Of a stretch of DNA of 64,000 bases, positions 1-15,831 are shown piece by piece; positions within the stretch are counted from its first letter, which is position 1, and every line of letters begins with the position of its first letter. Source of the DNA: Lachnospiraceae bacterium. GTDB lineage: Bacteria; Bacillota; Clostridia; Lachnospirales; Lachnospiraceae. Under the pieces are notes generated by a model that saw only the letters and a program-made list of their open reading frames with translations, was not told the origin of the DNA and made no database searches. The translations under genes were made by a program, and so were the position numbers. The stretch covers positions 1 through 64,000 of the forward strand of contig CAJTEY010000007.1 in NCBI GenBank assembly GCA_910575775.1. The letters are read 5' to 3'.

Positions 1-3000
1 CGCAAATCCTTTCCCGGTATTCTCTGCTTCATTGAAAGAGATACGGTAATTGACTGCGCCCGTTTTATCAATCTCCGGCTCTTTTTGTGGTACTTTTTCC
101 GGCTTTGGCGGATTGCCCCCGGTCAGCGTTTCCACATCGCCCATGACCTGCCGGATAAACGGATCGTTTTCTAAAGCATTTTCGTCTACTAACTGCCCGT
201 CCACAATCCCGGCTTTTTCCAGACCTTCCCGGACAGCCTGCGTGTCAATGTCGGGGAAATCATCTATTTCAGCAGAATCTTTTGATTCTGAAACAGTTCC
301 CGGCTCTGTAACCATATTTTCTGCTTCTTTCCCCTGTAAATCTCCGTTGAGATTTTGGCAGAAAACATCCGCTTCCTCCGGTGTGTCAAATGTTGGCACT
401 GTGCCATCGCCTGTTACATAATAATCCTGTGTTTCGCTGTCCCATACCGCATAAGGCTCTATAAAGGCATCCGAAGTTTCCGTAACCGTAAAGCGTATTG
501 TTTCTTCCTGTTCCGGTTCTTCTGTCAGATTTTCCGGCTCTGCATCCGGGAGAGGTTCTTCCTTCTTTTCTTCTGACTGCTCTGCTTCAGAAACTTCCGC
601 AGCGTGTCCTTCCCTCTGCTGTTTTGGCTCGCTCTCATAACGTGCCGCATACTTCTGAGCCTCCTTCAGCAGAGCATCCATTTCCACCGCTTTTTCCGTA
701 TTGCCGCTTAATGACTGCATCAGGACATAATCAGCGGCTTCTAAAAACAGAGTATCATAGACCGCCTTGCCCTCTAACCTCCTGCTGTCATCCTCAATGG
801 CAACCGCCCCGGTATCCTCGTTCCAGCCGACCACATCTTTCATAGAAAGCGCACCGCAGATTTTAACCACAGCGGACATCTCCGCAAGCCTTTCCATCAG
901 CGCTTTTTCATTGTCGCTGGCTTTATTTTCCGGTTCGGGACTTTGGGATTTTTCCCCGGAAATTTCCGCTTCCTGTTCCGGTACAGCAATTTTTTCCGGC
1001 TCCCTGTCACGCTCTATGTACCGCCTTGTCTGGTTTGTAAAACCGTCCAGCACAGCCGGGTGGGACGTGACGAGGTAATCCCTGGTCTGCCAGTCAGCGG
1101 AAGGGACAAGGCTTTTTGCCCACTCCTTATTGTCGGGGGAAAACCGCCCGTCATGGGATAAGTGCATGATTGTGTTTGCAAGGACGATTTCCACACGTTC
1201 CTTCCCATACTGCCGGATAACGCCCTCTGCAGTATCCCCCGGAAGGGTGTAACCGTCAAATTTCTCCGCAATCGCTTTTTCTATGGCATCTTTACATTCT
1301 ACCCGGACACCATGCTCCAGCTTTTCCTGCTCCCGGCGCATGGCTTCCTCCGCCTGCTCTTTTTTGTACTGTGCAAAGGCTTCCTTGCCCTTCGGCGTAA
1401 GGTATTTATCCGCATTGACAAGCTCCCTGATGCGCTTCTCCACCACGTTCCATTTTAAAAGCACTTTTGCGTATGGATCGCCTATCCTGCCTTTCCCCAG
1501 TTTGATTCCTTTGGAATCGTGCCATTCATCGCTCCGGTCTGAACCGATTAAGGCGGGAGCGCCGCCGCCCGTCCCGTATTCATTTTTAAGGAAAGCAATA
1601 TTTTCTTTCTTATCATGCCCTTCCATAAAATACTCATAGATACGGAACTGCCCATGATGATAGTTGCTGCCGCCTGTCAGACGCTCATCTATCTCATCCT
1701 GTGTAATAAAATCCTCATGCAGCACCTCCATGCTGTCCTGTACCGGGTATTCCGTTTTCTCTGTACTTAAATCCGCAATCTCTGAAAGCAGATGCTCCGG
1801 CTTTTTCACATACCGCCACCTGATCTGCTTTTCCCCGGCTTCAATCTGCTCTTTTGCGTGGGAAAGCTCCCCGGCGATGACATCGCGCCCCTCCTGTGTG
1901 GATAAAAGCTCGCACAGGATTGTCATGCTCTCCGGGTGGTTGTGGCTTTTAATCGGTATGCTCTCTGGCGCTTCCCCGATACCGTCCCAAAAGAAATTGA
2001 ACAGGTCATTTGACACCCTCTGACGTTCCACCGCATCCACAAGGAACACTTCATTTGCGCCCATGTAAGAGCCATTCTCCACCATAGAACGGACAACGCC
2101 CTCTATTTCCTGCCATCCCATCACCGCAACCGGGTTTTCCTTTGCGGACATCCCGTAGCCGACGCTCATGCCGGATTCATTGAACCAGACGGAAATGGGA
2201 TTGCTGCCAAAATCAAAGCCTTTCCCCGTAGTTCGGTACTCATTTTTCAGAAACTCCGCCATTTCCTCCGGCGTTTTGCCCTGCTGGTACTTGGCATAAA
2301 TGCGGCTCCTGCTGTTATCCCGTCCGCCCCCTGTGCGTAAAATGGCTTCAAGCTGCTCCTTTGGCAGAGAAAAAGCGGCGGGCATGATATATTTCTCTCC
2401 TGCCTGCGCCGCTTCTATCGTGCCGATCTGTTCCTCTATCGTGGGGAATAAACTAAGCTGCTGGTAACTTTGCGTTTCCTTCGGTTCTTCCCATTGCGGA
2501 ATCTGCCCCTCTTTCAGATATTCGCCTTTTTCCATGTAAAGGGCGATGCTGTCCCTCACAGTTTCCCATGATACAGTTGCCTCCGCTGTCCGGTTTAAAT
2601 AGCTCCCCTTCCAGACCGTCAGACCGTTTTCGTCCGCCCTATACCCGGCTCTTTCCTCCCCTACATAAAACTCGGTAAATTCCTTATGCCTGTAACTGTT
2701 TTTGATATATTCCGTCTGTTTATCCTTATCCGGCTCGAAAAGCATTACCCCGGCAATATCCGGGCATTTATGCACCATAAATTCATCAAACTGCAAGATG
2801 CCTTTCTCTATTCCGGACAAAGAAAGACCGGGCAATGGTTCTCCACTGTCCGGCTCTGGTAAATCCTTATTTTCAGTTTTTTCAGTCGCTCCTTCACTTA
2901 CAGGCTGTATACCAGTTCCCTCAGTACGATTTCCTCCGCCGAGTGCCTGATGCTGTTCATCTTCTGAACCCAAAGCATCTGGTTCTCCGCCTTGAGTTTT

Positions 3001-4158
3001 TCCGTCACTCCCTCCTGCTTCATCATCTGCCCGGTCAGCAGTTCCATCCTCTGCTCCGCCTGCTCCTGAATGGTCAGAAGATGCTCTTTCAGCTTCCCTT
3101 TCAGCAGAAGCCCGGTGTAAATCCCCTTCTTGTGTTCCTGTAAGTAATTCTTCCTCATCAGTCCGTATTTCGTCAGTGTCCCCTCCGGCTGTTCGTCCAT
3201 CTTTAACATCGGTATCAGATAATCCCCGTTCTTCTCGTAAGTCAGATTCATTATTCTTTCCCCTTTCCCCGGCGTTCCCGGTCTGTGTGGTAAGTTGTAT
3301 GTCCTCCGTTTTGCTTTCACGCTTTAAAGCATTATAGCGTGTGCCAGAGGTATTTGCAAGTCCTTTTTCGACAAAATTTCTTGATGCTTCCTTTCCGGCG
3401 ATTTCCCTGTCATACGCCCCGATTGCTTTGCCAATCTCCATAAGCACAGGCTTGGATAAATCGGATATGCTGTCACCGATGTGCGACAGTGTTTCTATTG
3501 TATTAAACTCATGGATATAGGGGAACTGGATTTCCTCTGCCAGCTCCGCATCTTCCATGCCGCACCGCTTTAAAACAGTGTAGGCGATGCTGTCCGCCAG
3601 TGTTTCCCGGACACGAACAGCAATATTCAGTTCGTCCAGTTCCTCCAGAAAACTTCCCTCTTTCAGATATTCCATATCCGAAGCAAGCTCCCCATAACAG
3701 TCCTGTGCAATCCGGGAAGCAATCTCCCTGATCCTGTCCGTAAACCCGGCTTCTTTGTCAGTATCCCCGTAAATCCCTTCCAGACGGTTCAGAACCGCTT
3801 CCTGATGTTCCTCCCGCATCTCCCAAAGCTGAGGGAAACGCCCGATGCGCCTTGCCTTATGCACGTCCGATATGTCAAAAACGTACCTCAGTCCGGTGTA
3901 GGGACTCCCTTCTTCGTCAAGAAGTGCAATCCCCTTTGCGCCCTTGTTTACCCAACAGTGCATTTTTTCATTCCATATCTCTATGGAAGCGCAGGCTGTG
4001 GCGTCCGGTCTTTGGGCATAGATAAGGAGCTGGTCTTTGAACGGGTATTTGTAGAGCCTTGATGCTGTGTTCAAATATTTCTTCCAGCTTTCTTCATTTC
4101 TCGTCACCCTCCTTGAAGTTTCTTCGGAGAGTATGGAAATTAAGTCATATTTTCTCAT
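1..4158 (-). CDS. Giant Tn1549-type helicase/methylase-like protein, N-terminal 1386 codons (C-terminus beyond window)
   Basis: Reading from ATG 4158 (GGAGG-type ribosome site 7 nt upstream) the frame stays open to the window edge. The N-terminus (MRKYDLISILSEETSR, then YKYPFKDQLLIYAQRPDATA and IEIWNEKMHCWVNKGAKGIAL, about residues 40-85) matches the N-terminal domain of the very large SNF2-helicase/N12-methylase proteins conserved in Tn1549-like ICEs. Those proteins are thought to handle DNA during transfer. Residues about 300-420 are a charged low-complexity linker which on the same strand also encodes tnpV in another frame. After it come two copies of a segment of the form RTGG..DNSR.RIY.KYQQGKT..E.A.FLKNEY and TGGSN...GQFRIYEYF..GH.KKENIAFLKNEY, then an acidic region. 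The helicase motifs themselves would lie to the left. The family assignment is firm; the enzymatic role is inferred from relatives. Confidence 0.85.
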   Translation of the reverse strand, partial: MRKYDLISILSEETSRRVTRNEESWKKYLNTASRLYKYPFKDQLLIYAQRPDATACASIEIWNEKMHCWVNKGAKGIALLDEEGSPYTGLRYVFDISDVHKARRIGRFPQLWEMREEHQEAVLNRLEGIYGDTDKEAGFTDRIREIASRIAQDCYGELASDMEYLKEGSFLEELDELNIAVRVRETLADSIAYTVLKRCGMEDAELAEEIQFPYIHEFNTIETLSHIGDSISDLSKPVLMEIGKAIGAYDREIAGKEASRNFVEKGLANTSGTRYNALKRESKTEDIQLTTQTGNAGERGKNNESDLREERGLSDTDVKDGRTAGGDTDEIRTDEEELLTGTQEGDLHRASAEREAERASSDHSGAGGAEDGTADRADDEAGGSDGKTQGGEPDALGSEDEQHQALGGGNRTEGTGIQPVSEGATEKTENKDLPEPDSGEPLPGLSLSGIEKGILQFDEFMVHKCPDIAGVMLFEPDKDKQTEYIKNSYRHKEFTEFYVGEERAGYRADENGLTVWKGSYLNRTAEATVSWETVRDSIALYMEKGEYLKEGQIPQWEEPKETQSYQQLSLFPTIEEQIGTIEAAQAGEKYIMPAAFSLPKEQLEAILRTGGGRDNSRSRIYAKYQQGKTPEEMAEFLKNEYRTTGKGFDFGSNPISVWFNESGMSVGYGMSAKENPVAVMGWQEIEGVVRSMVENGSYMGANEVFLVDAVERQRVSNDLFNFFWDGIGEAPESIPIKSHNHPESMTILCELLSTQEGRDVIAGELSHAKEQIEAGEKQIRWRYVKKPEHLLSEIADLSTEKTEYPVQDSMEVLHEDFITQDEIDERLTGGSNYHHGQFRIYEYFMEGHDKKENIAFLKNEYGTGGGAPALIGSDRSDEWHDSKGIKLGKGRIGDPYAKVLLKWNVVEKRIRELVNADKYLTPKGKEAFAQYKKEQAEEAMRREQEKLEHGVRVECKDAIEKAIAEKFDGYTLPGDTAEGVIRQYGKERVEIVLANTIMHLSHDGRFSPDNKEWAKSLVPSADWQTRDYLVTSHPAVLDGFTNQTRRYIERDREPEKIAVPEQEAEISGEKSQSPEPENKASDNEKALMERLAEMSAVVKICGALSMKDVVGWNEDTGAVAIEDDSRRLEGKAVYDTLFLEAADYVLMQSLSGNTEKAVEMDALLKEAQKYAARYESEPKQQREGHAAEVSEAEQSEEKKEEPLPDAEPENLTEEPEQEETIRFTVTETSDAFIEPYAVWDSETQDYYVTGDGTVPTFDTPEEADVFCQNLNGDLQGKEAENMVTEPGTVSESKDSAEIDDFPDIDTQAVREGLEKAGIVDGQLVDENALENDPFIRQVMGDVETLTGGNPPKPEKVPQKEPEIDKTGAVNYRISFNEAENTGKGFA
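2898..3251 (-). CDS. tnpV: TnpV family protein, nested in the helicase-type gene in another frame
   Basis: A 117-aa frame starting MNLTYEKNGDYLIPML and containing EGTLTKYGLMRKNYLQEHKK, then LKAENQMLWVQKMNSIR near the C-terminus, which are hallmarks of the transposon-encoded TnpV family. The frame is shifted by one base from the giant gene that runs through the same DNA, and both frames are open across the whole stretch. ATG 3251 is preceded by a GGGGAAAGAA stretch that could serve as a ribosome site. The frame is open further upstream to 3320, but the family starts near MNLTYEKNG. TnpV has no established function; it is common on Clostridia ICEs and IMEs. Whether it is translated here cannot be seen from sequence alone. 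Confidence 0.6.
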   Translation of the reverse strand: MNLTYEKNGDYLIPMLKMDEQPEGTLTKYGLMRKNYLQEHKKGIYTGLLLKGKLKEHLLTIQEQAEQRMELLTGQMMKQEGVTEKLKAENQMLWVQKMNSIRHSAEEIVLRELVYSL

Positions 4159-4293: not shown

Positions 4294-4324
4294 AGAAAAG
4301 CACCTAAGATTTCTCCTAAGTGCT
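4294..4324 (-). terminator. Intrinsic terminator downstream of the cargo nuclease-like gene
   Basis: On the minus strand AGCACTTAGGA pairs with TCTTAGGTGCT (two G-U pairs) over a short loop and is followed by TTTTCTT. It lies 37 nt after the stop codon of the 423-aa gene, so that gene ends its own transcript before the ICE helicase-type gene. Confidence 0.65.
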
Positions 4325-4360
4325 ACTCCAAATATAATATTCAATATAAAACAAACATCT

Positions 4361-5632
4361 TTATTGCTTAATGTATAAATCATATACCATTACATTAATC
4401 GTCAATGTATCTTTTGAATCAGACTCCTTAGAAAAAATACCTTGCCACTGGTTATGTTCAAGTCGAATGATATTTTTACACCTATCTGATGCGTTCAAAG
4501 CCTGATCTATGCTATCAAGCAGCGATTCAAAATCTTTATTTTCCTTATTAAAAATTATAAGTGATGTTTTTGTTTCTCTCCAAGTTGTATAACTGCATAG
4601 CTGGTCTATTGCTTCAACAAATTTTTTACTGCCATGCCAAATTTTACATTCAGCTACATATGCTGCCTTATTATCAAATGGAATATAGATGTCAGTTTTT
4701 CCAATTTTGTTAAAAGTTTCCCCTGAAGCTGTACCCTGATAATGTGTGTTCAAGTTTGATAAAATAATATCTCTCAATTCTTCTTCCAACAACTTACTAA
4801 AAGTACGAGCAGTTTTTTCCATAGATACACACGCTAATGAAATAATACTCTTTATATTTTCGTAATGCGCATCGGAAATCTCATAATTTTTCTCAGGCTC
4901 TTTCTTATTTGGAAAAGATATTTCTTTTTTCTTCTTTGCTTTTTTTAAAATAACAGGCTTTGTGTTGGGTGCATTAGCATTCAGCTTTAATGGCAATTCC
5001 AATCTTTCTCTCATTTGTAAATAATCATTTGCTTTTTGTAACCTTGTTTCCAAATATTTGTTTACAATATTTGACAAACCGTTATTATAGCTTCTCACTT
5101 CCTGATTTATCGTTTCTATTGTCTTAAAATATGTATCTATTTCACGCTGAAACCCCTTTTGAACAATCTCATTACTATTCTCACTTCTTTGCAATTCACT
5201 CTTTGCGTACTCCAGAGAAAATATAATTTTCCCATAATCATCGTCAGTTGGTGCTATTACTCTGTCAACTGGAAAACTTTGCCTATAAAAAGTTGACGGT
5301 CTTAAATCCAATAAATCTTTATCGCCATCAAAAGGAATTGTAAAAGTAATTTTATAGCCATCTAACATATGATACTGAGAACCAAATTCACTATATCCGG
5401 GGCGATAGAACTGATTATATCTTTGTAATTTTGTTTCGGTAAGCTCTTTCGTTATGTTTTCCGTAAATATCTGAATTTCTTCAATTTGATACTTTGCGAA
5501 ATAATACTCTGTCAAATCCCCCAAATCGGTGTTACATATTTCTGTATTTGTCAAATTATTTATTTCATTTCTAATATTATCAGATATAGCCCTAAACCAT
5601 GATGTTGTTTCCCCTTTTTCAAATAAGTTCAT
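4361..5632 (-). CDS. Cargo protein with C-terminal PD-(D/E)XK nuclease-like domain, family not recognised
   Basis: This 423-aa protein has no signal peptide or membrane segment. The first 220 residues are rich in Asn, Ile, Glu and Tyr and probably helical in their second part. A Lys-rich linker (KKAKKKKEISFPNKK) follows at about 235-250. The C-terminal domain, about 260-420, shows a restriction-enzyme-like pattern: Glu in LLEEELRD, Asp in GKTDIYIPF, then AECKIWHG (E-x-K) and a Gln in AIDQLCSY. It would be expected to cut nucleic acid, but no substrate can be read from sequence. The gene is clearly richer in A+T than the ICE backbone, has its own sigma-A type promoter and is bracketed by terminators, so it looks like an acquired single-gene cargo. 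A role in defence against phages or rival elements is inference only. Confidence 0.65.
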   Translation of the reverse strand: MNLFEKGETTSWFRAISDNIRNEINNLTNTEICNTDLGDLTEYYFAKYQIEEIQIFTENITKELTETKLQRYNQFYRPGYSEFGSQYHMLDGYKITFTIPFDGDKDLLDLRPSTFYRQSFPVDRVIAPTDDDYGKIIFSLEYAKSELQRSENSNEIVQKGFQREIDTYFKTIETINQEVRSYNNGLSNIVNKYLETRLQKANDYLQMRERLELPLKLNANAPNTKPVILKKAKKKKEISFPNKKEPEKNYEISDAHYENIKSIISLACVSMEKTARTFSKLLEEELRDIILSNLNTHYQGTASGETFNKIGKTDIYIPFDNKAAYVAECKIWHGSKKFVEAIDQLCSYTTWRETKTSLIIFNKENKDFESLLDSIDQALNASDRCKNIIRLEHNQWQGIFSKESDSKDTLTINVMVYDLYIKQ

Positions 5633-5675
5633 CTTTCATAATCTCCCTACTTCATAATAGCACAACCTTTCTCTA

Positions 5676-5704
5676 ATTATATCCTTTAACCACATAAATC
5701 TCAA
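5676..5704 (-). promoter_or_regulatory. Sigma-A type promoter of the cargo gene
   Basis: On the minus strand TTGAGA (5704-5699) and a perfect TATAAT (5681-5676) are separated by 17 bp, the consensus layout. The -10 box lies about 45 nt before the ATG at 5632. Confidence 0.75.
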
Positions 5705-5712
5705 CTACTTCT

Positions 5713-5757
5713 AAATAGACTGCAAAACACTTTTAAATGCTTTACAGTCTATTTTTA
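5713..5757. terminator. Bidirectional terminator between the HTH gene and the cargo gene
   Basis: AAATAGACTG (5713-5722) pairs with CAGTCTATTT (5745-5754), followed by T residues on the plus strand and by A/T on the minus strand. It should stop readthrough from the ICE operon into the cargo gene. Confidence 0.65.
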
Positions 5758-5777: not shown

Positions 5778-6113
5778 TTATTCATAAAAGCCATGTTCCT
5801 CAATGCCTTTTTCCAGAATGGTATGTATCAGTTCCTCCAGCTCCACACCGTTTATCTCGCTGACCACGATCAGCTTTGCAAGGGTATCTTTCTGTACGGA
5901 TATGGCATACTGTTCCTCATCGGCACGAAGTTCATGGACGCAGATGCCAAGTCCGTCCGCAATCCTGCATACCACGCCAAGCTCCGGCTCCCTGATGCCC
6001 GCCAGAATATCCATGATTATCCTCTCCGGCACTCCCGACATTCTGGAAAGCTCGATAATGCTGATTTCTTCCTCTTTCATCACGTTTAATAACTTATCCC
6101 CGGTTGTAAACAT
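5778..6113 (-). CDS. Helix-turn-helix regulator of the ICE
   Basis: A 111-aa protein starting MFTTGDKLLNVMKEEE, with an AGGGAGG ribosome site 9 nt upstream. Residues about 8-60 form an XRE-type helix-turn-helix (ISIIELSRMSGVPERIIMDILAGIREPELGVVCRIADGLGICVHEL). The C-terminal half (VQKDTLAKLIVVSEINGVELEELIHTILEKGIEE) may serve for dimerisation. It follows topB at 13 nt and so was part of the backbone operon. The frame is open further upstream, but no better start or ribosome site is present. The target promoter is unknown. Confidence 0.75.
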   Translation of the reverse strand: MFTTGDKLLNVMKEEEISIIELSRMSGVPERIIMDILAGIREPELGVVCRIADGLGICVHELRADEEQYAISVQKDTLAKLIVVSEINGVELEELIHTILEKGIEEHGFYE

Positions 6114-6126
6114 CTTTCTTCCTCCC

Positions 6127-7941
6127 TTATTTCTTCTTCCCGCCAGAAGTTTTCTTTTTCGGAAACTCCATGACAAACTTAAACTGTACCCCGCTTTTTT
6201 CTGCCCCGTCTTTGGTGTAATGGTATTCTTCCATCCCACTCGGAATGATATAAGCATCATAGGGCTTGCCCGCCTTGCTCTTTAACCCTTTTAACAGGAT
6301 TTTCTTTCCGGCAAGCATATCCTTCACCTGTGCATCGGTAAGGGCAGCACCCATTACCCGGCTCACGTTCATACCGCATTTTTTCACGCAGTAAGCGCCG
6401 AATTTTCCTTTTACCACCTGACCGCCGCAGTTCGGGCATACCCCAAGAGCCGCCTGCTCCTGTGCGAACATCTTTTTCTGTTCGTCACTGACCTCATGGT
6501 AGGTATGTATCAGTTCCGACACCATGTTTTCAATGTCCGCCATGAAGTCCTCCATAGGAAGCTCCCCTTTCGCTACCAGTGTCAGGGCATTTTCCCAATC
6601 GGCGGTAAGTTTCGGGGACTTCACCACATCCGGCAGCACCGTAATCAGCTTCATTCCGTCCTCTGTTGGTATGATCTGCTTCTTCTCACGCTTCACAAAC
6701 CCGTCCCTGACTAACTTCTCAATGATGTCCGCCCTTGTCGCAGGCGTACCCAAGCCTTTTCGTTCCACGTCATCGCCCATATCTTCCGCCCCGGCACGTT
6801 CCATTGCCGATAATAATAAATCTTCCGTAAAGTGCTTCGGCGACGAAGTGAAATGCTCGCTGACTTTCGTCTGCACACCGTCAAATGCCTGTCCCTCCGA
6901 CAGTTCCGGCAGCTTCTTTTCCTCTTTTTCTTCCTCCTGATTCCCGGAGATTTTAAAGGAACGCTTAAAGGCATCCTCAAAGGACTTCCACCCGTTATGC
7001 GTGACGGACTTCCCGGAAACCGCAAAAGTATGTCCATTGCAGGAAAACTCCGCCTTTACCGTTTCATACAGATGTTTCTCCCCGGTGGCGCATAACAGGC
7101 GGTTCGCAACCAAAGACAGGATTTTACGCTCCGTTTCCGGCAGTGCCGCAAGGTCAGCTTTCGCTATCTCCATTGTGGGGATAATGGCGTGGTGGTCTGT
7201 CACCTTTTTACTGTTCAGAATCCGCTTTATGTCTGGTCTGGAAACCTTGTTTTCCTCAAACATCAGGGAACTGAACACTGCTTCAATCACGCCCTCTGCG
7301 GTCTGCCCCATGTCATCGGATAAGAACTGGCTGTCCGTCCTCGGATATGTGGCTAACTTTTTCTCATAAAGGCTCTGTGTGTACTCTAAGGTCTGCTTTG
7401 CGGTAAATCCAAACAAGCGGTTCGCATCCCTCTGGAGCGTGGTAAGGTCATAGAGCTTCGGCGGCATAACCGTTTTTTCCTCTTTCACAACGGACGTGGT
7501 AAGAGCCTGCCCGTTTTGGCAACCCCCCGCAATCTCATCCGCTTCATTTTTATCATCAATACGCCCGGTGGCGGCATCCATCCCGTCCATCAGAATATGT
7601 GCCATGTAATATTTTTCCTTCTGGAAATTCATAATCTTTGCTTCCCGGTCTACTAACATCGCAAGGGTGGGTGTCTGCACCCGCCCCACCTTTAAAACCT
7701 TTCCGCCATATAAAACCGTAAACAGCCTTGTACCGTTGATGCCCACAAGCCAGTCCGCTTCCTGCCTGCACAGTGCGGAATGGTACAGGTTGTCATAATC
7801 GCTCCCCGGCTGTAAATTTTCAAGCCCTTCACGAATGGCGCTTTCCTCCATTGAGGAAATCCACAGGCGTTTGATCGGCTTGTCACAGCCTGCCATTTCA
7901 TACACAAGGCGGAAGATAAGCTCTCCCTCCCGTCCGGCGTC
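6127..7941 (-). pseudogene. topB: DNA topoisomerase III, C-terminal 604 codons, split by IME1
   Basis: The frame opens at the IME1 border with DAGREGELIFRLVYEMAG, the second TOPRIM motif, then has the topoisomerase IA core. The catalytic Tyr lies in KLATYPRTDSQFL, and the C-terminus has a CPNCGG...C...C zinc-ribbon-like segment and a basic tail ending KKKTSGGKKK. The missing N-terminus is at 15834-16139. Joining the two at the GA dinucleotide gives one 706-aa protein, the expected size for ICE-borne topoisomerase III. An internal start (GTG 7905) could yield a 592-aa fragment, but without the N-terminal TOPRIM glutamate it should not cleave DNA. The gene is probably restored when IME1 excises. 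Confidence 0.92.
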
Positions 7942-7952
7942 TGTTGAATAGT
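7940..7952. repeat. IME1 left end: core TC/GA dinucleotide and terminal inverted repeat
   Basis: Core TC at 7940-7941 (GA on the coding strand), then TGTTGAATAGT. It is the inverted partner of the right end at 15821-15833. Confidence 0.85.
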
Positions 7953-7979
7953 TGGAATAGGTGACTTAGAAAATATCCA

Positions 7980-9617
7980 TTATTCAAGGGTTTCCAATGC
8001 CCCTATGAATTTGTAATGGATAGTAAGTCGTTGAATTTTCTGCCCGTCAACTTCTACGGGTTCAGAAACAAGAATTTTTTCTATCAGTTGATTGATTATC
8101 TTAAAATTGAGTTCCGTTATTCCTGCATAACCGCTTATCTGCTCCGCAAACTGCTCAATGGAAGATAACTGCTCCCTGTCCGCTATGGCACTTTTTTCAA
8201 GTTCCTTTATCTTGGCAGTCAGTTCTTCCTGCTCGCTGTCATACCTTGCCGACAACATTTGGAAACGCTTTTCGGTCAGCAGTTCCCTTGTCAAGTCCTC
8301 GTACAGTTTGGCATACAGGTTTTCAATCTCCGACACACGCTGTTTACATTGCCTTAGTTCTTTTTTCTGCTGTTCCCTGTCCGCTGACATTTGGAGATTA
8401 AGACGCTCCGCAATTTCCGTTACCATTGCTTTCCTGTCCGTCAGTGCCTGTCCTGCGTGTTTCTGAATGTCTACAAGCACAACTTCGTGAACCGTCCTCG
8501 CCTCAATGTTGTGTGATGAACAACTTTCTTTCCCGAATTTACGGTACTTGGTACAGCAGTAGAAAGTCTTGTCCAGTACGTTGTTCCGCTTTCTTTTCTG
8601 CTCGACTTTGGCAAGCATGGCACTCCCACAATCAGCGCATTTGATAATCCCTCGGAAAATGTTATCATATCCGCTTGAACTTTCCCCGATAACAGGCGGT
8701 CGGCTCTGTAAAATCTTTTGCACATTGTTCCAGCGGTTCTGTTCAATGATTGGCTCATGTGTGCCATAGATAACTTCACGCTCTGCAAACGGAATATACT
8801 GTCTTTTCTTGGAACGTATGGTCTTAGTTGGTTTGTCCGCAACAGTAAGGTTTCCTGCATAGACGGGATTGTGCAATATCTGACTGACATAGGCAGTATC
8901 CCAGTCATACATTTTTTCCTCGTCCATAAAACGCTCAAACAGTTCCTTTTTATAGAAACTCGGTTTCAGCACTTTTGCCTTACGCAAGCGGTTACAGATA
9001 GTGTGAAGCCCCACACCCTCCTCGGCGATTGAGAAAATCAGTTCCACAACGGGGGCGGTCACTTCATCAATGACAAGGTGGTTATGGTCTTTCTCGTCTT
9101 TCTGATAACCGAACGGGGCGGTGGTTGCCATATACTTGCCCTGCATTCTCCTTGCGTGGAGTGCGCTCTTGATTTTCCTTGATGTGTCCTTTGCGTACAT
9201 TTCATTGATGATGTTGCGGAACGGTGTAATATCCATTTGTGCGTTGTCTATGGAGTCCACCCCGTCATTGATTGCAATGTACCGCACGTTATGATTAGGG
9301 AAAAATACCTCGATATAAGTACCTGTTTCAAGATAATTCCTCCCCAATCGTGACAGGTCTTTTGTGATGAGCGTTGACACTTCCCCGTCCTGTATATCCT
9401 CGATAAGCTGTCGGAAAGCGGGGCGGTCGTAGTTTGTACCGCTGTAACCGTCATCAACGTAAAACTGGCAGTTCAGAAAACCGTTGCGCTTTGCATAATC
9501 TTTCAGCATGGTTTTCTGTGTGCTGATACTCATGCTCTCATTGTTCGTGCCGTCATCTTTGGAAAGCCTGCAATATAAAGCAGTGATTTTGTCGTTATTC
9601 AGTTTTGCCCTTTTCAT
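7980..9617 (-). CDS. Large serine recombinase (TndX-like) of IME1
   Basis: A 545-aa site-specific recombinase. The N-terminal resolvase domain begins ITALYCRLSKDD, with the nucleophile Ser at about residue 19, followed by DGYSGTNYDRPAF and LGRNYLETG. A recombinase domain follows (about 180-300). A zinc-ribbon segment (CADCGSAM ... CCTKYRKFGKESCSSH, about 335-380) and a long coiled coil complete it. It lies 38 bp inside the IME1 left border, as expected for the enzyme that excises and inserts the element at a GA core. The start at MKRAKLNN is chosen because AAGGAGG lies 6 nt upstream; a longer frame would include that site. Confidence in family is very high; the exact subfamily is inferred. 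Confidence 0.95.
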   Translation of the reverse strand: MKRAKLNNDKITALYCRLSKDDGTNNESMSISTQKTMLKDYAKRNGFLNCQFYVDDGYSGTNYDRPAFRQLIEDIQDGEVSTLITKDLSRLGRNYLETGTYIEVFFPNHNVRYIAINDGVDSIDNAQMDITPFRNIINEMYAKDTSRKIKSALHARRMQGKYMATTAPFGYQKDEKDHNHLVIDEVTAPVVELIFSIAEEGVGLHTICNRLRKAKVLKPSFYKKELFERFMDEEKMYDWDTAYVSQILHNPVYAGNLTVADKPTKTIRSKKRQYIPFAEREVIYGTHEPIIEQNRWNNVQKILQSRPPVIGESSSGYDNIFRGIIKCADCGSAMLAKVEQKRKRNNVLDKTFYCCTKYRKFGKESCSSHNIEARTVHEVVLVDIQKHAGQALTDRKAMVTEIAERLNLQMSADREQQKKELRQCKQRVSEIENLYAKLYEDLTRELLTEKRFQMLSARYDSEQEELTAKIKELEKSAIADREQLSSIEQFAEQISGYAGITELNFKIINQLIEKILVSEPVEVDGQKIQRLTIHYKFIGALETLE

Positions 9618-9687
9618 GTCGTCCTCCTTAATGAAAAGGGACTTCCTCAATTCCTATTATACTATATTCCCTTTTCCGTTTCCAGTG

Positions 9688-9861
9688 CTAATTTCCGCTG
9701 TTTTCCGCTATCTCCTTAACCTTTTTTGTTATCTGTTCCTCGGCTATCCGCTTGAATACCGTTTCCATTTTTTCAGTGCCTACATAGTGCCTTTCCACGA
9801 TTATTTTTGTGGGTGGGTGCTGTCGGGTGGCTCTTTGCCCTGTGTTGCTGTCTTTGCTCAT
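9688..9861 (-). CDS. Small 57-aa protein next to the recombinase
   Basis: Starts MSKDSNTGQRATRQHPPTK and ends KKVKEIAENSGN. The body (IIVERHYVGTEKMETVF) resembles small proteins that accompany serine recombinases on Clostridia elements, such as the TnpW group, but the match is weak. It lies 70 bp upstream of the recombinase in the same direction, with GGAG-like sequence before the ATG. A helper or excision factor role is possible but not shown. Confidence 0.6.
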   Translation of the reverse strand: MSKDSNTGQRATRQHPPTKIIVERHYVGTEKMETVFKRIAEEQITKKVKEIAENSGN

Positions 9862-9885
9862 AAATCTGCTCCTTTACAATAAAAT

Positions 9886-9913
9886 AGAGCGCATAGATTT
9901 TTCTATACGCTCT
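9886..9913 (-). terminator. Hairpin downstream of the GNAT gene
   Basis: AGAGCG-C-ATAGA pairs with TCTAT-A-CGCTCT across a T-rich loop, 85 bp after the GNAT stop codon. There is no clear U-tract, so it is a weak terminator or a stabilising hairpin. Confidence 0.4.
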
Positions 9914-9997
9914 GACGCTGTGTTACTTATTCAGTTGTGATTGTCGTAAGGTAAGATAAAAACCGATTGAAATTAAAAATATATGTTTTCTCAACTT

Positions 9998-10489
9998 CTA
10001 AAGTGAATTATCAAACGTAAATCCTGTTTCATTTGCCTCCATTGCGGTAAATGTATCATATTTCCCGTTTGTATACTCTGCAATAACCTTACCCCAAAAG
10101 TTTTGGGCGGGTAAGTTGTTAATCCATTGGGATATTTCCCACCCACCATGAAACATATCAAAAATCTTCATAGCGGCTACCCTGCCAACTCCTTTTTGTC
10201 TGTACTTTTTCATTACAAAAAATTCGGCTATGTTATAAGGGCTTGGCAGATTATTATGTTCACAACAAGAACGTACTAAAACCAGTCCCGCAAGTTTTCC
10301 ATTTACCCTGATAAAAAAAGGGTGTCTGCCTTCTTCATTCCAATAATCATCAATATGCTCATATCCAAAATATCCATATTCGTTTATGTCATCATTGGAA
10401 AACTCTGAAAAATCATAATTATACAATTCCAACATCTGAATAAAAACAGATTTCTGCTCGTATAATATAGGCTCTACACGAATATCCAT
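9998..10489 (-). CDS. GNAT-family N-acetyltransferase-like protein
   Basis: A 163-aa protein starting MDIRVEPILYEQK, with a GGAGG site 6 nt before the ATG. The acetyl-CoA binding loop is visible as KKYRQKGVGRVAAMKIFD (motif A, R/Q-x-x-G-x-G/A), preceded by the strand IAEFFV. The upstream strand FFIRVNGKLAGLVLVR and the late strand FTAMEANETGFTFD complete the fold. It acts on an unknown acceptor. It is cargo of IME1, downstream of the relaxase at 93 bp, and its A+T content is higher than that of the relaxase. Confidence 0.8.
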   Translation of the reverse strand: MDIRVEPILYEQKSVFIQMLELYNYDFSEFSNDDINEYGYFGYEHIDDYWNEEGRHPFFIRVNGKLAGLVLVRSCCEHNNLPSPYNIAEFFVMKKYRQKGVGRVAAMKIFDMFHGGWEISQWINNLPAQNFWGKVIAEYTNGKYDTFTAMEANETGFTFDNSL

Positions 10490-10582
10490 ACATATCCTCC
10501 ATAAAAATATAATTATACTGTCTATGATTTGTGCCCCTAACAAGAATACCACAATCACACGCTCATTTCTATTAGATTTCCA

Positions 10583-12172
10583 TTAAATTTCTTCCTCCCT
10601 CCGCTTAGTCCTGTTCTGTTGCCTGTTATGCTGTCGGCTCTCGTTCTGAAGTTCCCTCTCAAGGTTCTTTTTGTTATAACTGATTACCTCGGCATATGCT
10701 AACTCTGTGGCGGTCTTGGTCTGCTCCTTGCCGATACTGTCATACTCGGATTGCAAGGACTGTATCTCGGCTTTCCACTGTTTCGGCGTTATCTTCTCGC
10801 CATTCTGTAAAAGGCTCTGCATACGCTCCTTTAATTCGGGGTACTTCGATAAGCTGTCCTTATGCTCCTTATCGTATTTCATTTTCGCAAATCCTTTGAG
10901 TGACTGGCTCTCCTTATAGGTGGCTTGGATTGGCGCATAAAGGGCATACATTTTTGACAGTTCCTTTAATCGGTTTAGTTTCTGCCCCTTTGAAAGATGT
11001 ACCGTTTCCAACTGTTGGTATCTCTGTTCCTTATCCGCTGTGAATTTCGCAAGGCTCTCAAAGCTGTCTATCTTCCTTGTCGTGATGAATTTCTCCGCAT
11101 TGTCGGCTGACTGCAAGGCGCTTCTGTCGGATATTCTTCTTAGGTGCTTTCCGCTGACAATCGGCAAGTCAAGTCTGCCTTTGCGTTCCCTCACTTTTGC
11201 AATCATTTCTATGACTTCATTCTTCACGCTGACCGCCGCATTTTTAATCTGCGTACTTTTGTACGTTGCGTACTGTGCGCTGTGAAGTTCCTGCTTGGCA
11301 AGCATGAGTATTTCTTTCGCCTGTTCCAACAGTATATTGTTCTTGATGATTTCCCGATTGATGTTTCCCCTCTCGGTCTGTATTCCCTTGCGCTCTAAAG
11401 CGTTGGCAATCGCCCCGATATGGATAGTTGGCTCTCGGTCAATCCCCTGTTCCTTAAAAGAACGGTGTTCCCAATGTACCGCAATCCCTAACTGCTCATT
11501 GGCGGCATTGATTGTGTCGGCTAAATCCTTGCGCCACATTTTAGCGTTTTCCTTACTGTTCCAGTCGGTGCTGTCGGCGGTGTGGCATTTCCATTGTTTC
11601 CTGTTCCGCTTGTCAACTTTCTGCTGACCTGTCTTTTTGTCAATCACTGGTATCTTTTCGCCGTTCTCGTCAAGGTCATAGATTTTCTTCTGTTTCGCTC
11701 CCCATTCCCCGTTTTCAGTGATAGGGCGCATGGTAAGCAAAACATGGATATGGAGATTGCGCTGTCCTTTATCGTTCTCGCTGTCATGGATTGCCCAGTC
11801 AGCGCACATACCTTTATCAATAAAATTCCTCTGAACGTAATCCCTCACAACTTCCTCTGCAAATTCGTAACTCCATTCGTTGGGGAGTGACGCTTTTAAC
11901 ATTCTTGCAAGCTGTGATTTCTGCCCTTTCTCTGACAGTTCAACAGCGTTCCATAAAGTGGCTCGGTCTGCATACTCTTTGGGCGCATTGGGCGGGAGAG
12001 TGATTTCACTATGGACTAAATCCTCATGGTATTTCGGGCGGTAGGTCTGCCCGTCAAACTCGCTGACAAGAACACTCCTGCTGATATAGGACGCTTTCTC
12101 AACTGCCGACTGCCCCTTGCTCCGCTTGACTATGGAAAAACGTGTGCTTGCCTGTTTCGTGACATTACCCAT
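10583..12172 (-). CDS. MobA/MobL-family relaxase of IME1
   Basis: A 529-aa relaxase. The N-terminal MobA/MobL domain (about 1-240) begins TRFSIVKRSKGQSAVEKASYISR. The metal-binding histidine motif is NLHIHVLLTMRP, followed by the usual GEWGAKQK. The C-terminal half is helical and highly charged. It should nick the IME1 oriT and lead one strand into a recipient through the transfer channel of a helper ICE. ATG 12172 follows an AGGTG at 6 nt; a GTG at 12181 is the alternative. The hairpin-rich oriT candidate lies directly upstream. Confidence 0.95.
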   Translation of the reverse strand: MGNVTKQASTRFSIVKRSKGQSAVEKASYISRSVLVSEFDGQTYRPKYHEDLVHSEITLPPNAPKEYADRATLWNAVELSEKGQKSQLARMLKASLPNEWSYEFAEEVVRDYVQRNFIDKGMCADWAIHDSENDKGQRNLHIHVLLTMRPITENGEWGAKQKKIYDLDENGEKIPVIDKKTGQQKVDKRNRKQWKCHTADSTDWNSKENAKMWRKDLADTINAANEQLGIAVHWEHRSFKEQGIDREPTIHIGAIANALERKGIQTERGNINREIIKNNILLEQAKEILMLAKQELHSAQYATYKSTQIKNAAVSVKNEVIEMIAKVRERKGRLDLPIVSGKHLRRISDRSALQSADNAEKFITTRKIDSFESLAKFTADKEQRYQQLETVHLSKGQKLNRLKELSKMYALYAPIQATYKESQSLKGFAKMKYDKEHKDSLSKYPELKERMQSLLQNGEKITPKQWKAEIQSLQSEYDSIGKEQTKTATELAYAEVISYNKKNLERELQNESRQHNRQQNRTKRREEEI

Positions 12173-12283
12173 ACGCAACACCTACATTCTGCCAATAGGG
12201 TAGTGGGGTGCATGAATAGACTTTGTGGGCAGATAAAAGCCGCACTTTGGCTTTTGTCTGAACGCAAAGTTCACTAAAGGGTA

Positions 12284-12440
12284 GCAAGCGTAGCTTGCGA
12301 AGGGGAATTGTCGTTTCCCCTTTTGGCTGTCGCAAGACAGACAACGCCCTCTGCAAGAGTCCATGCAAGTGAAACTTGCCCCTCGGAGAGCGCACATACC
12401 ACCTCTGGTGGTATATCTGTGCGCACCCCGTAAACGGGGT
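12284..12440. other. Candidate oriT of IME1
   Basis: The roughly 300-bp gap between the relaxase and the DUF3847 gene has no gene and holds several hairpins. These are GCAAGC-GTA-GCTTGC (12284-12298), GCAAGT-GAA-ACTTGC (12365-12379), a long stem GCGCACATACCACC with GGTGGTATATCTGTGCGC (12390-12424), and CCCCGTAAACGGGG (12426-12439). The junction CTGTGCGCACCC after the long stem has the same layout as the RSF1010-like nic region of IME2. The relaxase gene begins just to the left. No nicking data can be read from sequence. Confidence 0.6.
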
Positions 12441-12478
12441 GAATACGTTACCTCGGCTTTCCAGTTCCGTTGCCCTCG

Positions 12479-12820
12479 TCATTCCGTACCGCCCTCGCTT
12501 TCATTTTCGGCATTGGGGAGAGTAGGTTGTGGGGGAGTGGTTTCTCGGCTTTCCGCTTTGATTTTAGATATAATCTGCTGACACTCCCTTGTCTGCAAGG
12601 CAACCGACAAGATACGGTTTAACTCGCCCTCGTCATAGCGGTAGCAGTCGGGGAAATACTTCACGATAATACCGCCCATGATGTACTTGTGGTGGTTCTC
12701 GGCTTTGCGTTTTTTCTCGTTCTGTTTTTTCTTTTCGTTAGCTACACGCTGTTGCGCCTGTTTCAACGCCTGCAATGCTTTTTCTAAGTTTTTGCTTGTA
12801 TCATTCTTGCTCTCAATCAT
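12479..12820 (-). CDS. DUF3847-type mobilization accessory protein
   Basis: A 113-aa Lys/Glu/Gln-rich protein: an N-terminal coiled coil (LEKALQALKQAQQRVANEKK), then MGGIIVKYFPDCYRYDEGELNRIL, typical of the small DUF3847 proteins encoded next to MobA/MobL relaxases. A MobC-like role at oriT is likely but not proven. It sits on the far side of the oriT candidate from the relaxase, in the same direction. The ATG follows GAGG at 7 nt. Confidence 0.75.
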   Translation of the reverse strand: MIESKNDTSKNLEKALQALKQAQQRVANEKKKQNEKKRKAENHHKYIMGGIIVKYFPDCYRYDEGELNRILSVALQTRECQQIISKIKAESRETTPPQPTLPNAENESEGGTE

Positions 12821-13012
12821 TTCTGATACCTCATTCTTTCTGTGCTGTGTTGATAGTTTCTGAAAATAAAAAAGGTAGCTGATTGTCTGTTAAGATAACC
12901 GCTACCCAAATAGGACTATTTAGTTTCTGATATTCTTTTTTTGCCTTTGTCCATAAATACAAATTGGGAATTTCCATTTCTGAAAATTCCCTTTAAAGCA
13001 AGAACTAAAGGC

Positions 13013-13243
13013 TTAAAATTCATCAAGCATTTTTTTGCAACTTTCTATGGTTTCTTTTGTTATTCGTTCTATTTCTTCTTCCGTATGAGTGTAATAAAAT
13101 GATGGGGGAAACAATCCCCAACAACTTCCACCCATAAGTTCCCACAATCTGTCCATTTCCCATAATTTTATTTTGAACATTACTTTGCGTTTTATTTTTT
13201 TTAATGTACTGATACATTTCCTTGCAACTGCCATTATCCGCAT
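13013..13243 (-). CDS. Small unassigned protein of IME1
   Basis: A 76-aa frame whose second half reads MFKIKLWEMDRLWELMGG then FYYTHTEEEIERITKETIES. It begins 21 nt after the preceding gene and has GGG-AAAAAGG before ATG 13243. An internal ATG (13180) would give 55 aa. I do not recognise the family. The AT-rich, non-random composition and operon spacing support a real gene. Confidence 0.5.
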   Translation of the reverse strand: MRIMAVARKCISTLKKIKRKVMFKIKLWEMDRLWELMGGSCWGLFPPSFYYTHTEEEIERITKETIESCKKMLDEF

Positions 13244-13264
13244 TAGCCTTTTTCCCTTTCTGTT

Positions 13265-13858
13265 TTACCTTGCTCCAATTCCCGCTTTTTCTGCAAAGTA
13301 TTCCCTTTTTGCCATAAGTTCCTCTTGCGTATCTTTAGACAGGCATTTGAATATATCCTCATAATCCAGTTCTGCCATTGGGGTGTTTTTTGTGAGTGCT
13401 AACAACTGCGCCTCAAACCATTCGTCCCATAAATCAAGAAAAAGTTCAAGGCTGTCTGTGTAGGCTATGGCGTCATCAAATCCATACGGGAATTTATAAT
13501 ATATCAGTTTCACAAATCCGAACCTTCCTGCGTCTACAACCGTAACTTCAATTTCATCAAGTTCCTTCTCATAAGCACTGACAACTCTTTTGCATTTTTC
13601 ATATTCTTCATCGCTGATATACTTTCTTTTTTCTTTGGGTTTTTCTTCCTGCTCCTGCCAATCCTTTTCCATCTTAACGATTTCCTTTTCCAAAAATTGG
13701 AGTTTACTTTCCATTTCTTCTTTGGAAGTGGCAGCAACAGCAAACTGCAATATTTCTTTTTCATTCCACCCATTAACTTTTTCATAACGCTCTGCCAATG
13801 CCGACAGCCTTTCCTGTTGCTCGTCCTCAATTATGTACGTAATTTCATAAAATTTCAT
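13265..13858 (-). CDS. Unassigned protein with the DAGRFGF domain, fused to an N-terminal coiled coil
   Basis: A 197-aa protein with AAAGGAG before its ATG. Residues 1-90 are a charged helical region. From about 93 to 190 it is clearly homologous to the 122-aa protein at 34758-35126 in the ICE backbone: KYISDEEYEKCKRV, VTVVDAGRFGFVKL, GFDDAIAYTDSLELFLDLW and AELDYEDIFKCLSKDTQEE each have close counterparts there. The domain has no function I know. Its presence on both the ICE and an IME nested in it suggests a role tied to element biology. Confidence 0.7.
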   Translation of the reverse strand: MKFYEITYIIEDEQQERLSALAERYEKVNGWNEKEILQFAVAATSKEEMESKLQFLEKEIVKMEKDWQEQEEKPKEKRKYISDEEYEKCKRVVSAYEKELDEIEVTVVDAGRFGFVKLIYYKFPYGFDDAIAYTDSLELFLDLWDEWFEAQLLALTKNTPMAELDYEDIFKCLSKDTQEELMAKREYFAEKAGIGAR

Positions 13859-13924
13859 TTGGTGATTTTTCTCCTTTCACACTAGGGGTCATACATATTC
13901 ATTTTTTCCTACTCCCTTAGTATA

Positions 13925-13938
13925 TTCGTTCTTACGAA
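13925..13938 (+). promoter_or_regulatory. Candidate operator upstream of repressor copy 1
   Basis: Perfect inverted repeat TTCGT-TCTT-ACGAA, followed by a second one, ATATTC-N8-GAATAT. The same TTCGT-N4-ACGAA occurs before copy 2 at 14365-14378. A dyad conserved in front of two duplicated repressor genes fits autoregulation. Confidence 0.55.
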
Positions 13939-14002
13939 GATATTCAAGTATGAGAATATACTTTATTCTATTGTTATACACACTATTAAAGGGGGACTGA
14001 AT

Positions 14003-14221
14003 GTGATTGACTATTCCCCGTTTTGGGAAACTTTAGAAAAATCAATTGAAAACTGGTATACTCTGACGAAAAACCACCGCATATCGGATAGCACGCTCAA
14101 CCGTTTAAAACACAATAGAGATGTGACCACTAAAACGCTGAACGATTTATGCCGAATATTAGGCTGTGACATAAAGGATATTGTCCGATACATTCCTTCT
14201 GACAAAGACCAAAAATTATAA
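14003..14221 (+). CDS. Small XRE-type repressor, copy 1
   Basis: A 72-aa HTH protein started by GTG (an ATG two bases earlier runs straight into a stop), with GGGGG 7 nt upstream. The fold is the short Cro/CI type: WYTLTKNHRISDSTLNRLKH, then TTKTLNDLCRILGCDIKDIV. It reads divergently from the IME1 mobilization genes, so it is well placed to control them. Copy 2 lies 220 bp downstream. Confidence 0.82.
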   Translation: MIDYSPFWETLEKSIENWYTLTKNHRISDSTLNRLKHNRDVTTKTLNDLCRILGCDIKDIVRYIPSDKDQKL

Positions 14222-14225
14222 ACTG

Positions 14226-14266
14226 GCGATAGCAATTTTCACTGTTTGCTGTCGCTTATATTTTTT
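14226..14266 (+). terminator. Intrinsic terminator after repressor copy 1
   Basis: GCGATAGCAA pairs with TTGCTGTCGC (one G-U), followed by TTATATTTTTT. Confidence 0.75.
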
Positions 14267-14443
14267 ACATATCATTCTCCCTTGTCTGTTTTTTATTTGT
14301 TCTTTACTTTTCTTACTTCAAACTAAAACTACACATTCAGTTTTGCTCCTTTCCTCTTGTTGTATTCGTTTTTACGAAGATATTTAAGTATCGGAATATA
14401 TTTTATTCTATTGTTAAAGATACTATTAAAGGGGGCGCTGAAT

Positions 14444-14662
14444 GTGATTGACTATTCTCCGTTTTGGGAAACTTTGGATAAGTCAAATGAAAATTGGTAT
14501 ACTTTGACAAATAAACATCATTTATCACATAGTACACTCCACCGCTTGAAGCACAACAAAGATGTATCAACTAAAACATTGAATGATATATGCCGAATTT
14601 TAGATTGTGACATAAAAGATATTGTCCGATATATTCCCTCTGACAAAGACCAAAAATTATAA
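14444..14662 (+). CDS. Small XRE-type repressor, copy 2
   Basis: A 72-aa paralogue of the protein at 14003, 60 of 72 residues identical. Differences cluster in the helix-turn-helix (NKHHLSHSTLHRLKHNKD against KNHRISDSTLNRLKHNRD), which may shift DNA preference. The GTG start has GGGGG 8 nt upstream, as in copy 1. The conserved C-terminus DIVRYIPSDKDQKL is identical in both. Confidence 0.82.
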   Translation: MIDYSPFWETLDKSNENWYTLTNKHHLSHSTLHRLKHNKDVSTKTLNDICRILDCDIKDIVRYIPSDKDQKL

Positions 14663-14666
14663 ACAG

Positions 14667-14696
14667 GCGATAGCAATTCTCACTGTTTGCTGTCGC
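14667..14696. terminator. Hairpin after repressor copy 2, shared with the convergent gene
   Basis: Same GCGATAGCAA / TTGCTGTCGC stem as copy 1. The convergent minus-strand gene ends inside it (stop at 14680), so it may stop both transcripts. Confidence 0.55.
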
Positions 14697-14964
14697 TTAA
14701 ATTCATCTTTAACATCATTTCTCTTGCCTGTTCTCTTTGTTCTTTGCTTATCCTTCTTGGCTTACGGTAATTAACGTATGATTTCGGAAAGGAATAGGTC
14801 TTAGATATTTTGTCCTGCCCTGTCAGCTTGTATATGTCGGGAAATTCATCAACAAGTGTGTCAAGTTTCCGCATAACTGTTTTATCCCTTGTGTAGACGG
14901 TGGCAGTCTGTTCTCCTGCATTGTAATTAACAATCGTTTCTTGCTCGTATCGTGAAAGTTTCAT
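14680..14964 (-). CDS. Unassigned 94-aa protein of IME1
   Basis: Starts MKLSRYEQETIVNYNAGEQTA and reads TVYTRDKTVMRKLDTLVDEFPDIYKL, a small alpha/beta pattern seen in conserved hypothetical proteins of Clostridia elements. Its ATG overlaps the stop of the upstream gene by 4 nt (ATGA), so the two are translationally coupled. I do not know a function. Confidence 0.65.
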   Translation of the reverse strand: MKLSRYEQETIVNYNAGEQTATVYTRDKTVMRKLDTLVDEFPDIYKLTGQDKISKTYSFPKSYVNYRKPRRISKEQREQAREMMLKMNLSDSKQ

Positions 14965-15569
14965 AGTGCCATATCCCCCTTTCCTTTGCTGTGGGTTTTG
15001 TGCTTTTTTTCCTCGGCAACTGTCGGCTGTTTTGTCTGTTCCTTTGCTTTGGCTAACCTTGCCTTTATGGAATGGTCATGCTCAGTCAGTTTCCGTCTTT
15101 TGGTGGTGGCTGTCAGTTCCGCACACGTTTCTTCGGACAGAGAATTTAATTTCTTTAAGGTGGTACTTACTATCTGCTTTGTGTTATCGTCTTTTATCTG
15201 CGGAAGAATAGCGGACAGACTGGCACACGTTTCCGCTTTGCTCTGTTCCCCAAACTGATAGATTAAATTGATTTCATCAGCATTAAAAGGTATCTGAACA
15301 TTTGCGCCTTCACATAAACGCTCCACGCCCACGCACTTAGGTAAATTTCTTGTCAGTTCGTAATTATCCCTCGCTGTAATTATTCCATGATTGTCGGTCT
15401 GCCTTACCTCGACTTCGCACTGGCTTCTCTGTTCCAACACAAGCCACTGGTATTTATCACTTTCTTTGGTAAAGACACTCTGATGCGCATTAGAGTGTGT
15501 CTTGCTACGGATATATTTCTCTGTGGTACTGTAATAGTATAAAATCTGCTGTTCCTGCTTTTTATCCAT
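14961..15569 (-). CDS. Unassigned 202-aa protein of IME1
   Basis: Starts MDKKQEQQILYYYSTTEKYIRSK with AGGAGG 10 nt upstream. It is a soluble, mixed protein: a beta-rich first half (YQWLVLEQRSQCEVEVRQTDNHG), a helical centre (EINLIYQFGEQSKAETCASL) and a basic Lys-rich tail that may bind DNA. It is the first gene of the leftward pair and nearest to the IME1 right end. No family recognised. Confidence 0.65.
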   Translation of the reverse strand: MDKKQEQQILYYYSTTEKYIRSKTHSNAHQSVFTKESDKYQWLVLEQRSQCEVEVRQTDNHGIITARDNYELTRNLPKCVGVERLCEGANVQIPFNADEINLIYQFGEQSKAETCASLSAILPQIKDDNTKQIVSTTLKKLNSLSEETCAELTATTKRRKLTEHDHSIKARLAKAKEQTKQPTVAEEKKHKTHSKGKGDMAL

Positions 15570-15831
15570 GCTCTTTGTCCTCCTGTGATATGGATTGATA
15601 TGATTGATTGGTTTCCGTGCTGATAAATGATTTTCTTACGTTAATTGTCGGGAGATTGGATTGCGTAATATTGTTGTTGGATATTTCTCCGCTTGTGGGA
15701 ATAGGAGTTCATTTTATACGGTAATTACCGCATGAAAAAAGACTATAACCGATAGTGTCATAGCCTTTTAAGGATTGAGGAAGTCCCTTTCTTATTTGTA
15801 TTTGTTTGTCACCCCTCCGCACTATCCAACA
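15570..15831. other. IME1 right-end noncoding region
   Basis: About 260 bp without a gene. It holds a 12-bp palindrome CGGTAATTACCG (15719-15730), an interrupted stem formed by AAAAGACTAT and ATAGCCTTTT (about 15737-15770), and the terminal inverted repeat. It probably contains recombinase binding sites and the promoter of the leftward pair. Confidence 0.5.

Follow-up and report, generated by a model that had tools for sequence, protein, structure and literature searches.

A predicted PD-(D/E)XK nuclease of the candidate defence family PDC-S54 occupies an exchangeable cargo slot in a Lachnospiraceae ICE

We analysed a 64-kb window, which forms the start of a 148-kb contig in a 4.88 Mb draft genome of a Lachnospiraceae bacterium, with a focus on a single minus-strand gene near the left end of the window. 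The open reading frame (4361-5632, taken from the ORF listing of the window) starts with ATG and encodes a 423-aa protein composed of an N-terminal domain, a linker and a C-terminal nuclease domain. Its gene body has a GC content of 31-32%, compared to ~47-53% in the flanking backbone (1-4000 and 6001-8000), and ICE genes lie on both sides. A promoter-like TTGAGA-N17-TATAAT sequence matching 11 of 12 consensus positions is located on the minus strand 43 bp upstream of the ATG (5704 to 5676, reading in the direction of the gene) and is the top-scoring site in the region. Since promoter-like sites across the region are no more frequent than in shuffled sequences (9 observed, 9.2 in shuffles), support for this promoter comes from its position and quality. 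Further upstream, a hairpin at 5717-5754 has folding energies of -22.7 kcal/mol (minus strand, z -9.3) and -10.8 kcal/mol (plus strand, z -3.8), and the T run behind it is mainly a plus-strand feature; this hairpin is probably a terminator that insulates the nuclease unit from upstream backbone genes. A second hairpin on the minus strand with a T tail (4299-4324; -17.1 kcal/mol, z -5.7) forms the downstream terminator. The sequence-only reading that preceded this work had described exactly such a unit, an AT-rich gene between backbone genes with a consensus promoter, an upstream bidirectional terminator and a downstream terminator, and each of these elements was recovered. The limits it proposed, 4294-5757, essentially coincide with the variable unit defined below.

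The neighbours of the nuclease gene are minus-strand ICE backbone genes. Downstream lies a gene with a DUF3849 domain that runs off the contig end (1-4158, at least 1385 aa). Upstream, a small backbone gene (5778-6122), which directly precedes the cargo, is followed by the C-terminal part of the topoisomerase III gene topB (6127-7905). In the window, topB is split because a ~7.9-kb mobilisable element (7945-15831) is inserted in it; the element encodes a large serine recombinase (7980-9650) and a MobA/MobL relaxase (10583-12181), and the insertion site is intact in six related regions (L004-L007, L009 and L010). The backbone continues farther on with a CD1107-like protein, an M23/NlpC peptidase, a TraG-type ATPase, TrbL/VirB6, a T4SS coupling protein and a MobA/MobL relaxase.

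General searches with the 423-aa protein provided little information. Neither Pfam nor NCBIfam gave a match above cut-off, a sequence search of PDB chains returned nothing useful, and Foldseek of the whole model against PDB and BFVD yielded no significant match, its best-ranked hits being noise such as DNA polymerase beta. The C-terminal domain (residues 254-423, ~170 residues; 4364-4873) carries the conserved pattern E-D-ExK-QxxxY, in agreement with the E...GKTDI...AECK...DQ nuclease pattern that the sequence-only reading had pointed out and which is mostly invariant in an alignment of 17 sequences. The putative motif I acidic pair E283-E284 (4781-4786), the predicted catalytic D314 in GKTDI (4691-4693), the predicted catalytic E328-C-K330 (4643-4651) and the RecB-like motif IV Q344xxxY348 (4589-4603) are all among the positions invariant in this alignment, which include E283, E284, R287, E305, T306, F307, G311, D314, E328, C329, K330, W332, G334, Q344 and Y348; the Y348 position is N in the Halobaculum homologue. 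Structure prediction (pLDDT 78) places helix 283-298, strands 303-305, 314-319 and 322-331, helix 335-348 and strand 355-362 in the alpha-beta-beta-beta-alpha-beta order of the PD-(D/E)XK core. Restriction endonucleases head the list of structural neighbours for residues 250-423: BamHI (Z 7.2, rmsd 4.1, 135 aligned), then OkrAI (Z 7.0, rmsd 4.7, 140 aligned) and EcoT38I (Z 6.2, rmsd 3.5, 113 aligned). As these Z values are middling (<8), the sequence profile provides stronger support than the fold. In hhalign, the C-terminal profile aligned at 96.9% probability and E 1.3e-10 with the nuclease region of AAA-ATPase/PDDEXK proteins, the catalytic residues being in register. Motifs, profile and model together identify a PD-(D/E)XK nuclease domain, and nuclease activity is predicted.

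The N-terminal domain (residues 1-215; 4988-5632) may represent a sensor or dimerisation part. When residues 1-242 were predicted alone (pLDDT 83, pTM 0.74), the model showed three helices, then a sheet, then a ~58-residue helix spanning residues 153-210. Compared to solved structures, the best matches reached Z 4.4 at most and consisted of weak helix-grip/START-like and LptE-like hits. The statement of the sequence-only reading that the first 220 or so residues match nothing thus stands for Pfam, NCBIfam and PDB folds and falls at the family level, where this domain is a conserved part of PDC-S54. The two domains also occur apart. The nuclease domain is joined to a different, unassigned N-terminus on E. 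coli and Pantoea plasmids (hhalign E 2.6e-34); these fusions are encoded at 5476-6510 of L031 (E. coli, near a helicase and a retron) and 7413-8447 of L131 (Pantoea). Conversely, genome G311 encodes two proteins of 182 and 189 aa that consist solely of the PDC-S54 N-terminal domain (L014 1495-2040 and L020 1498-2064), the former near a transposase and a peptidase-like gene. The swapped and stand-alone domains look like sensor/effector shuffling of the kind described for Shedu, in which varied N-terminal domains are attached to the nuclease core (PMC12137116).

Family assignment came from PADLOC. The protein matches the PDC-S54 model (PDLC05036) over its full length with E 3.2e-110, residues 2-420 covering positions 6-407 of the 410 in the model. 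PDC-S54 was catalogued as a single-gene defence candidate in the 2023 PADLOC-DB release, and PDC names denote putative defence candidates from a guilt-by-embedding screen (PMC12988326). By this profile match, the gene is a member of a catalogued candidate family and hence does not represent a new one. Our literature search found no test of PDC-S54, and searching by name found nothing; two other PADLOC candidates, PDC-S04 and PDC-M63, gave no defence in the native host (PMC12409345). Family members are found in both bacteria and archaea. Plasmids of Rhizobium, Nostoc, Thauera, Paludisphaera, Streptomyces, Deinococcus, Spiroplasma and haloarchaea carry homologues, as do 12 viral contigs and a gut phage (70% identical). 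Full-length copies are rare and scattered: in the genus, one genome out of 77 has such a copy, and in the family 5 out of 397 do. Relative to copies that are 5-10% divergent in protein (L007, L008, L009 and contig C59, the counts for C59 being equal to those for L008), dN/dS is 0.09-0.12 and is alike in both domains. This value of ~0.1 in each points to purifying selection that keeps both domains working.

We sought the same ICE backbone in the 397 family and 77 genus genomes and retrieved 20 regions, in which the site of the nuclease gene is variable. By this comparison the slot lies between the hairpin at 4299-4324 and the small gene's stop codon at 5778, and the segment 4325-5777 is swapped for other genes or absent in sister ICEs. 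In G405 (L106; flank identity 87-90%), only 59 bp separate the two flanks, with a short hairpin-like sequence and no gene in them, which corresponds to an empty site. Three more distant relatives (L112, L113 and L116) have no gene at this position either. Elsewhere the slot contains small uncharacterised proteins (L107), an uncharacterised 489-aa protein (L108), an uncharacterised 219-aa protein (L109), a DUF4238 protein (L114), an alpha/beta hydrolase (L115) or very large ORFs that, judged by eye, resemble secreted surface proteins (L119-L123 and L125). The slot genes of L108 (3015-4484), L107 (3129-3689) and L109 (2174-2833) had no Pfam or PADLOC match above noise; the L108 cargo had a weak 'Csm2' match (E 0.002). 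In the window, L107 and L108 the cargo starts directly after the stop codon of the small gene. The cargo of L107, L108 and L109 ends at the same terminator hairpin as in the window, and this hairpin therefore belongs to the slot and not to the cargo. From these alignments we conclude that the site is a genuine cargo slot, as the sequence-only reading had suspected.

The slot can also hold the nuclease gene together with a second gene, as in L007 and L009, where it adjoins a 411-aa HNH_5 protein (9332-10567). The genome of the window itself contains a second, ~90% identical nuclease copy with the topB-side flank (contig C59, region L124, 1-2654). This copy is followed by a 138-aa protein and a 298-aa Mrr_cat-type protein, and the set may be a restriction cassette of two parts that occupies this slot. 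No transposase or integrase was found in the nuclease unit; the simplest route for cargo exchange would be homologous recombination in the flanks. The nuclease gene and its flanks are near-identical (96-99% DNA identity) in contigs of differently named Lachnospiraceae isolates (L004, L005 and L010), which suggests recent transfer. Their names and those of the collections suggest that the hosts are mouse-gut bacteria. The Sporofaciens musculi copy (L010 8001-9264) has a broken frame, in two pieces with one stop, due to either decay or sequencing error. With its constant flanks, common terminator and swapped single-gene cassettes, the slot is a place to seek further cargo genes in this ICE family.

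To place the family in its genomic context, we compared the 15 kb surrounding each of ten plasmid homologues with control regions of equal length taken from other parts of these plasmids, at a cut-off of E 1e-10. With PDC-S54 itself left out, the 87 neighbour proteins matched 278 PADLOC models and the 112 control proteins matched 14, counts in which models are redundant and which stem from a small sample (n=10 loci). PDC-S54 is strongly associated with defence genes, and the direction of the difference is clear. Individual neighbourhoods contain a retron (in L025, and also in L031 from E. coli), a NACHT protein (L024), CBASS-type SAVED/ThiF genes (L027) and restriction-modification genes (L026 and L131). 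In G517, PDC-S54 shares one gene run (L136 49-5856) with a Shedu SduA_C protein, a putative ATPase/DNA-binding protein and a Ser/Thr-kinase-like protein; this run is a possible compound defence island. Several homologues had no defence gene in their neighbourhood, and the other occupants of the window's slot in sister ICEs are mostly not recognisable as defence genes.

Our preferred reading, to which we assign a probability of about 0.62, is that the gene constitutes a single-gene PDC-S54 defence cassette, which a Lachnospiraceae ICE carries as interchangeable cargo at a fixed site and in which a sensor directs a nuclease to cut invading DNA. The protein would most likely act as a multimer held together by the long helix. 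Its N-terminal domain may sense incoming DNA by its modification, its ends or structure, or a phage protein bound to it, and sensing would license the PD-(D/E)XK domain (E283/E284, D314, E328xK330 and Q344) to cut that DNA with Mg2+. The presumed target is a phage or plasmid and the presumed substrate DNA. Because the unit has no partner methyltransferase, its mode would resemble that of Shedu or a type IV restriction enzyme and not classical restriction-modification, and it would have to tell invading DNA apart by modification, ends or structure or through a phage factor. The presence of the nuclease domain on another N-terminus in enterobacterial plasmids fits sensor swapping. A bolder extension, possible but rather doubtful in our judgement, is that PDC-S54 is a real immune nuclease with an N-terminal fold not yet solved and a trigger unlike that of other systems; this N-terminus would serve as the sensing module in a family that pairs the same nuclease with other sensors on enterobacterial plasmids and also occurs alone, as in G311.

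The main rival keeps the architecture and changes the outcome: once triggered, the protein would degrade host DNA (or RNA) indiscriminately, leading to cell death or arrest, as in NucC-type abortive infection. Single-gene PD-(D/E)XK effectors with such an action are known, the nuclease domain has NucC and Can2/Card1-type proteins among its structural neighbours of middling score, and the use of that domain on other N-termini would suit such an effector as well. However, the gene stands alone, in a unit that encodes neither a cyclic-nucleotide synthase nor another signalling partner, and we consider this reading unlikely. Less probable again is that the nuclease chiefly guards the niche of the ICE by destroying rival ICEs, plasmids or prophages, with phage defence being secondary. 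Carriage by ICEs, conjugative plasmids and phages would be in line with such a weapon, as would the competition functions often held in mobile-element slots, but the second related region with its 90% identical copy in the window genome indicates that close relatives co-reside.

Two further explanations were considered. Some PD-(D/E)XK proteins are homing nucleases, and given its mobility between contexts the gene could encode a selfish endonuclease that promotes its own spread and brings the host no advantage. Yet many unrelated genes occupy the same slot, so that the slot and not the gene explains the position, and homologues are found at unrelated sites in defence-rich neighbourhoods; we regard this reading as very improbable. 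We give the least credence of all to a transfer or maintenance role as an ICE backbone gene. Apart from the gene's place amid backbone genes in the window, the comparison of sequences strongly contradicts such a role: a backbone transfer gene would be expected to be conserved in sister ICEs, but this gene is absent across the 59-bp join of the close sister, missing in further relatives and replaced in others, and it has homologues on plasmids and phages of unrelated hosts. In summary, the sequence-only reading was right about the nuclease and the cargo site, remains plausible on a defence role in view of the PDC-S54 assignment and the defence-gene neighbours, with activity predicted, and was wrong to call the gene new. 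If PDC-S54 does defend, a widespread candidate family gains a tractable example from gut Lachnospiraceae with a predicted active site, and the sister elements with an empty slot would serve as a ready comparison.

Among known systems, Shedu resembles the PDC-S54 protein in its two-domain, single-protein layout, in which a C-terminal PD-(D/E)XK nuclease follows an N-terminal domain that is diverse and regulatory in Shedu and a putative sensor in PDC-S54. PDC-S54 differs in the absence of the SduA_C domain and in an N-terminus without a Pfam family. We rejected membership in Shedu, as there was no match to PF14082 (SduA_C/DUF4263) up to E 1, and when 14 C-terminal domains were aligned by hhalign with three SduA_C proteins, the probability was 4.6% over 20 columns; Shedu was not among the structural matches of the model either, which excludes nothing. 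By profile, the closest recognised nuclease domain is that of the AAA-ATPase and PDDEXK proteins of Firmicutes (AAA_35 with PDDEXK_3), in which D, ExK and QxxxY are aligned, but these proteins have an N-terminal AAA ATPase and PDC-S54 shows no ATPase domain. Classical restriction-modification was rejected since the unit contains no methyltransferase. Type IV and Mrr-like enzymes are, by analogy, similar to PDC-S54 in combining a methylase-free PD-(D/E)XK nuclease with a separate recognition domain, whereas PDC-S54 has no Mrr_cat match. The closest counterpart is PDC-S54 as catalogued in PADLOC, a single gene with the same motifs, and nothing sets the 423-aa protein apart from that family.
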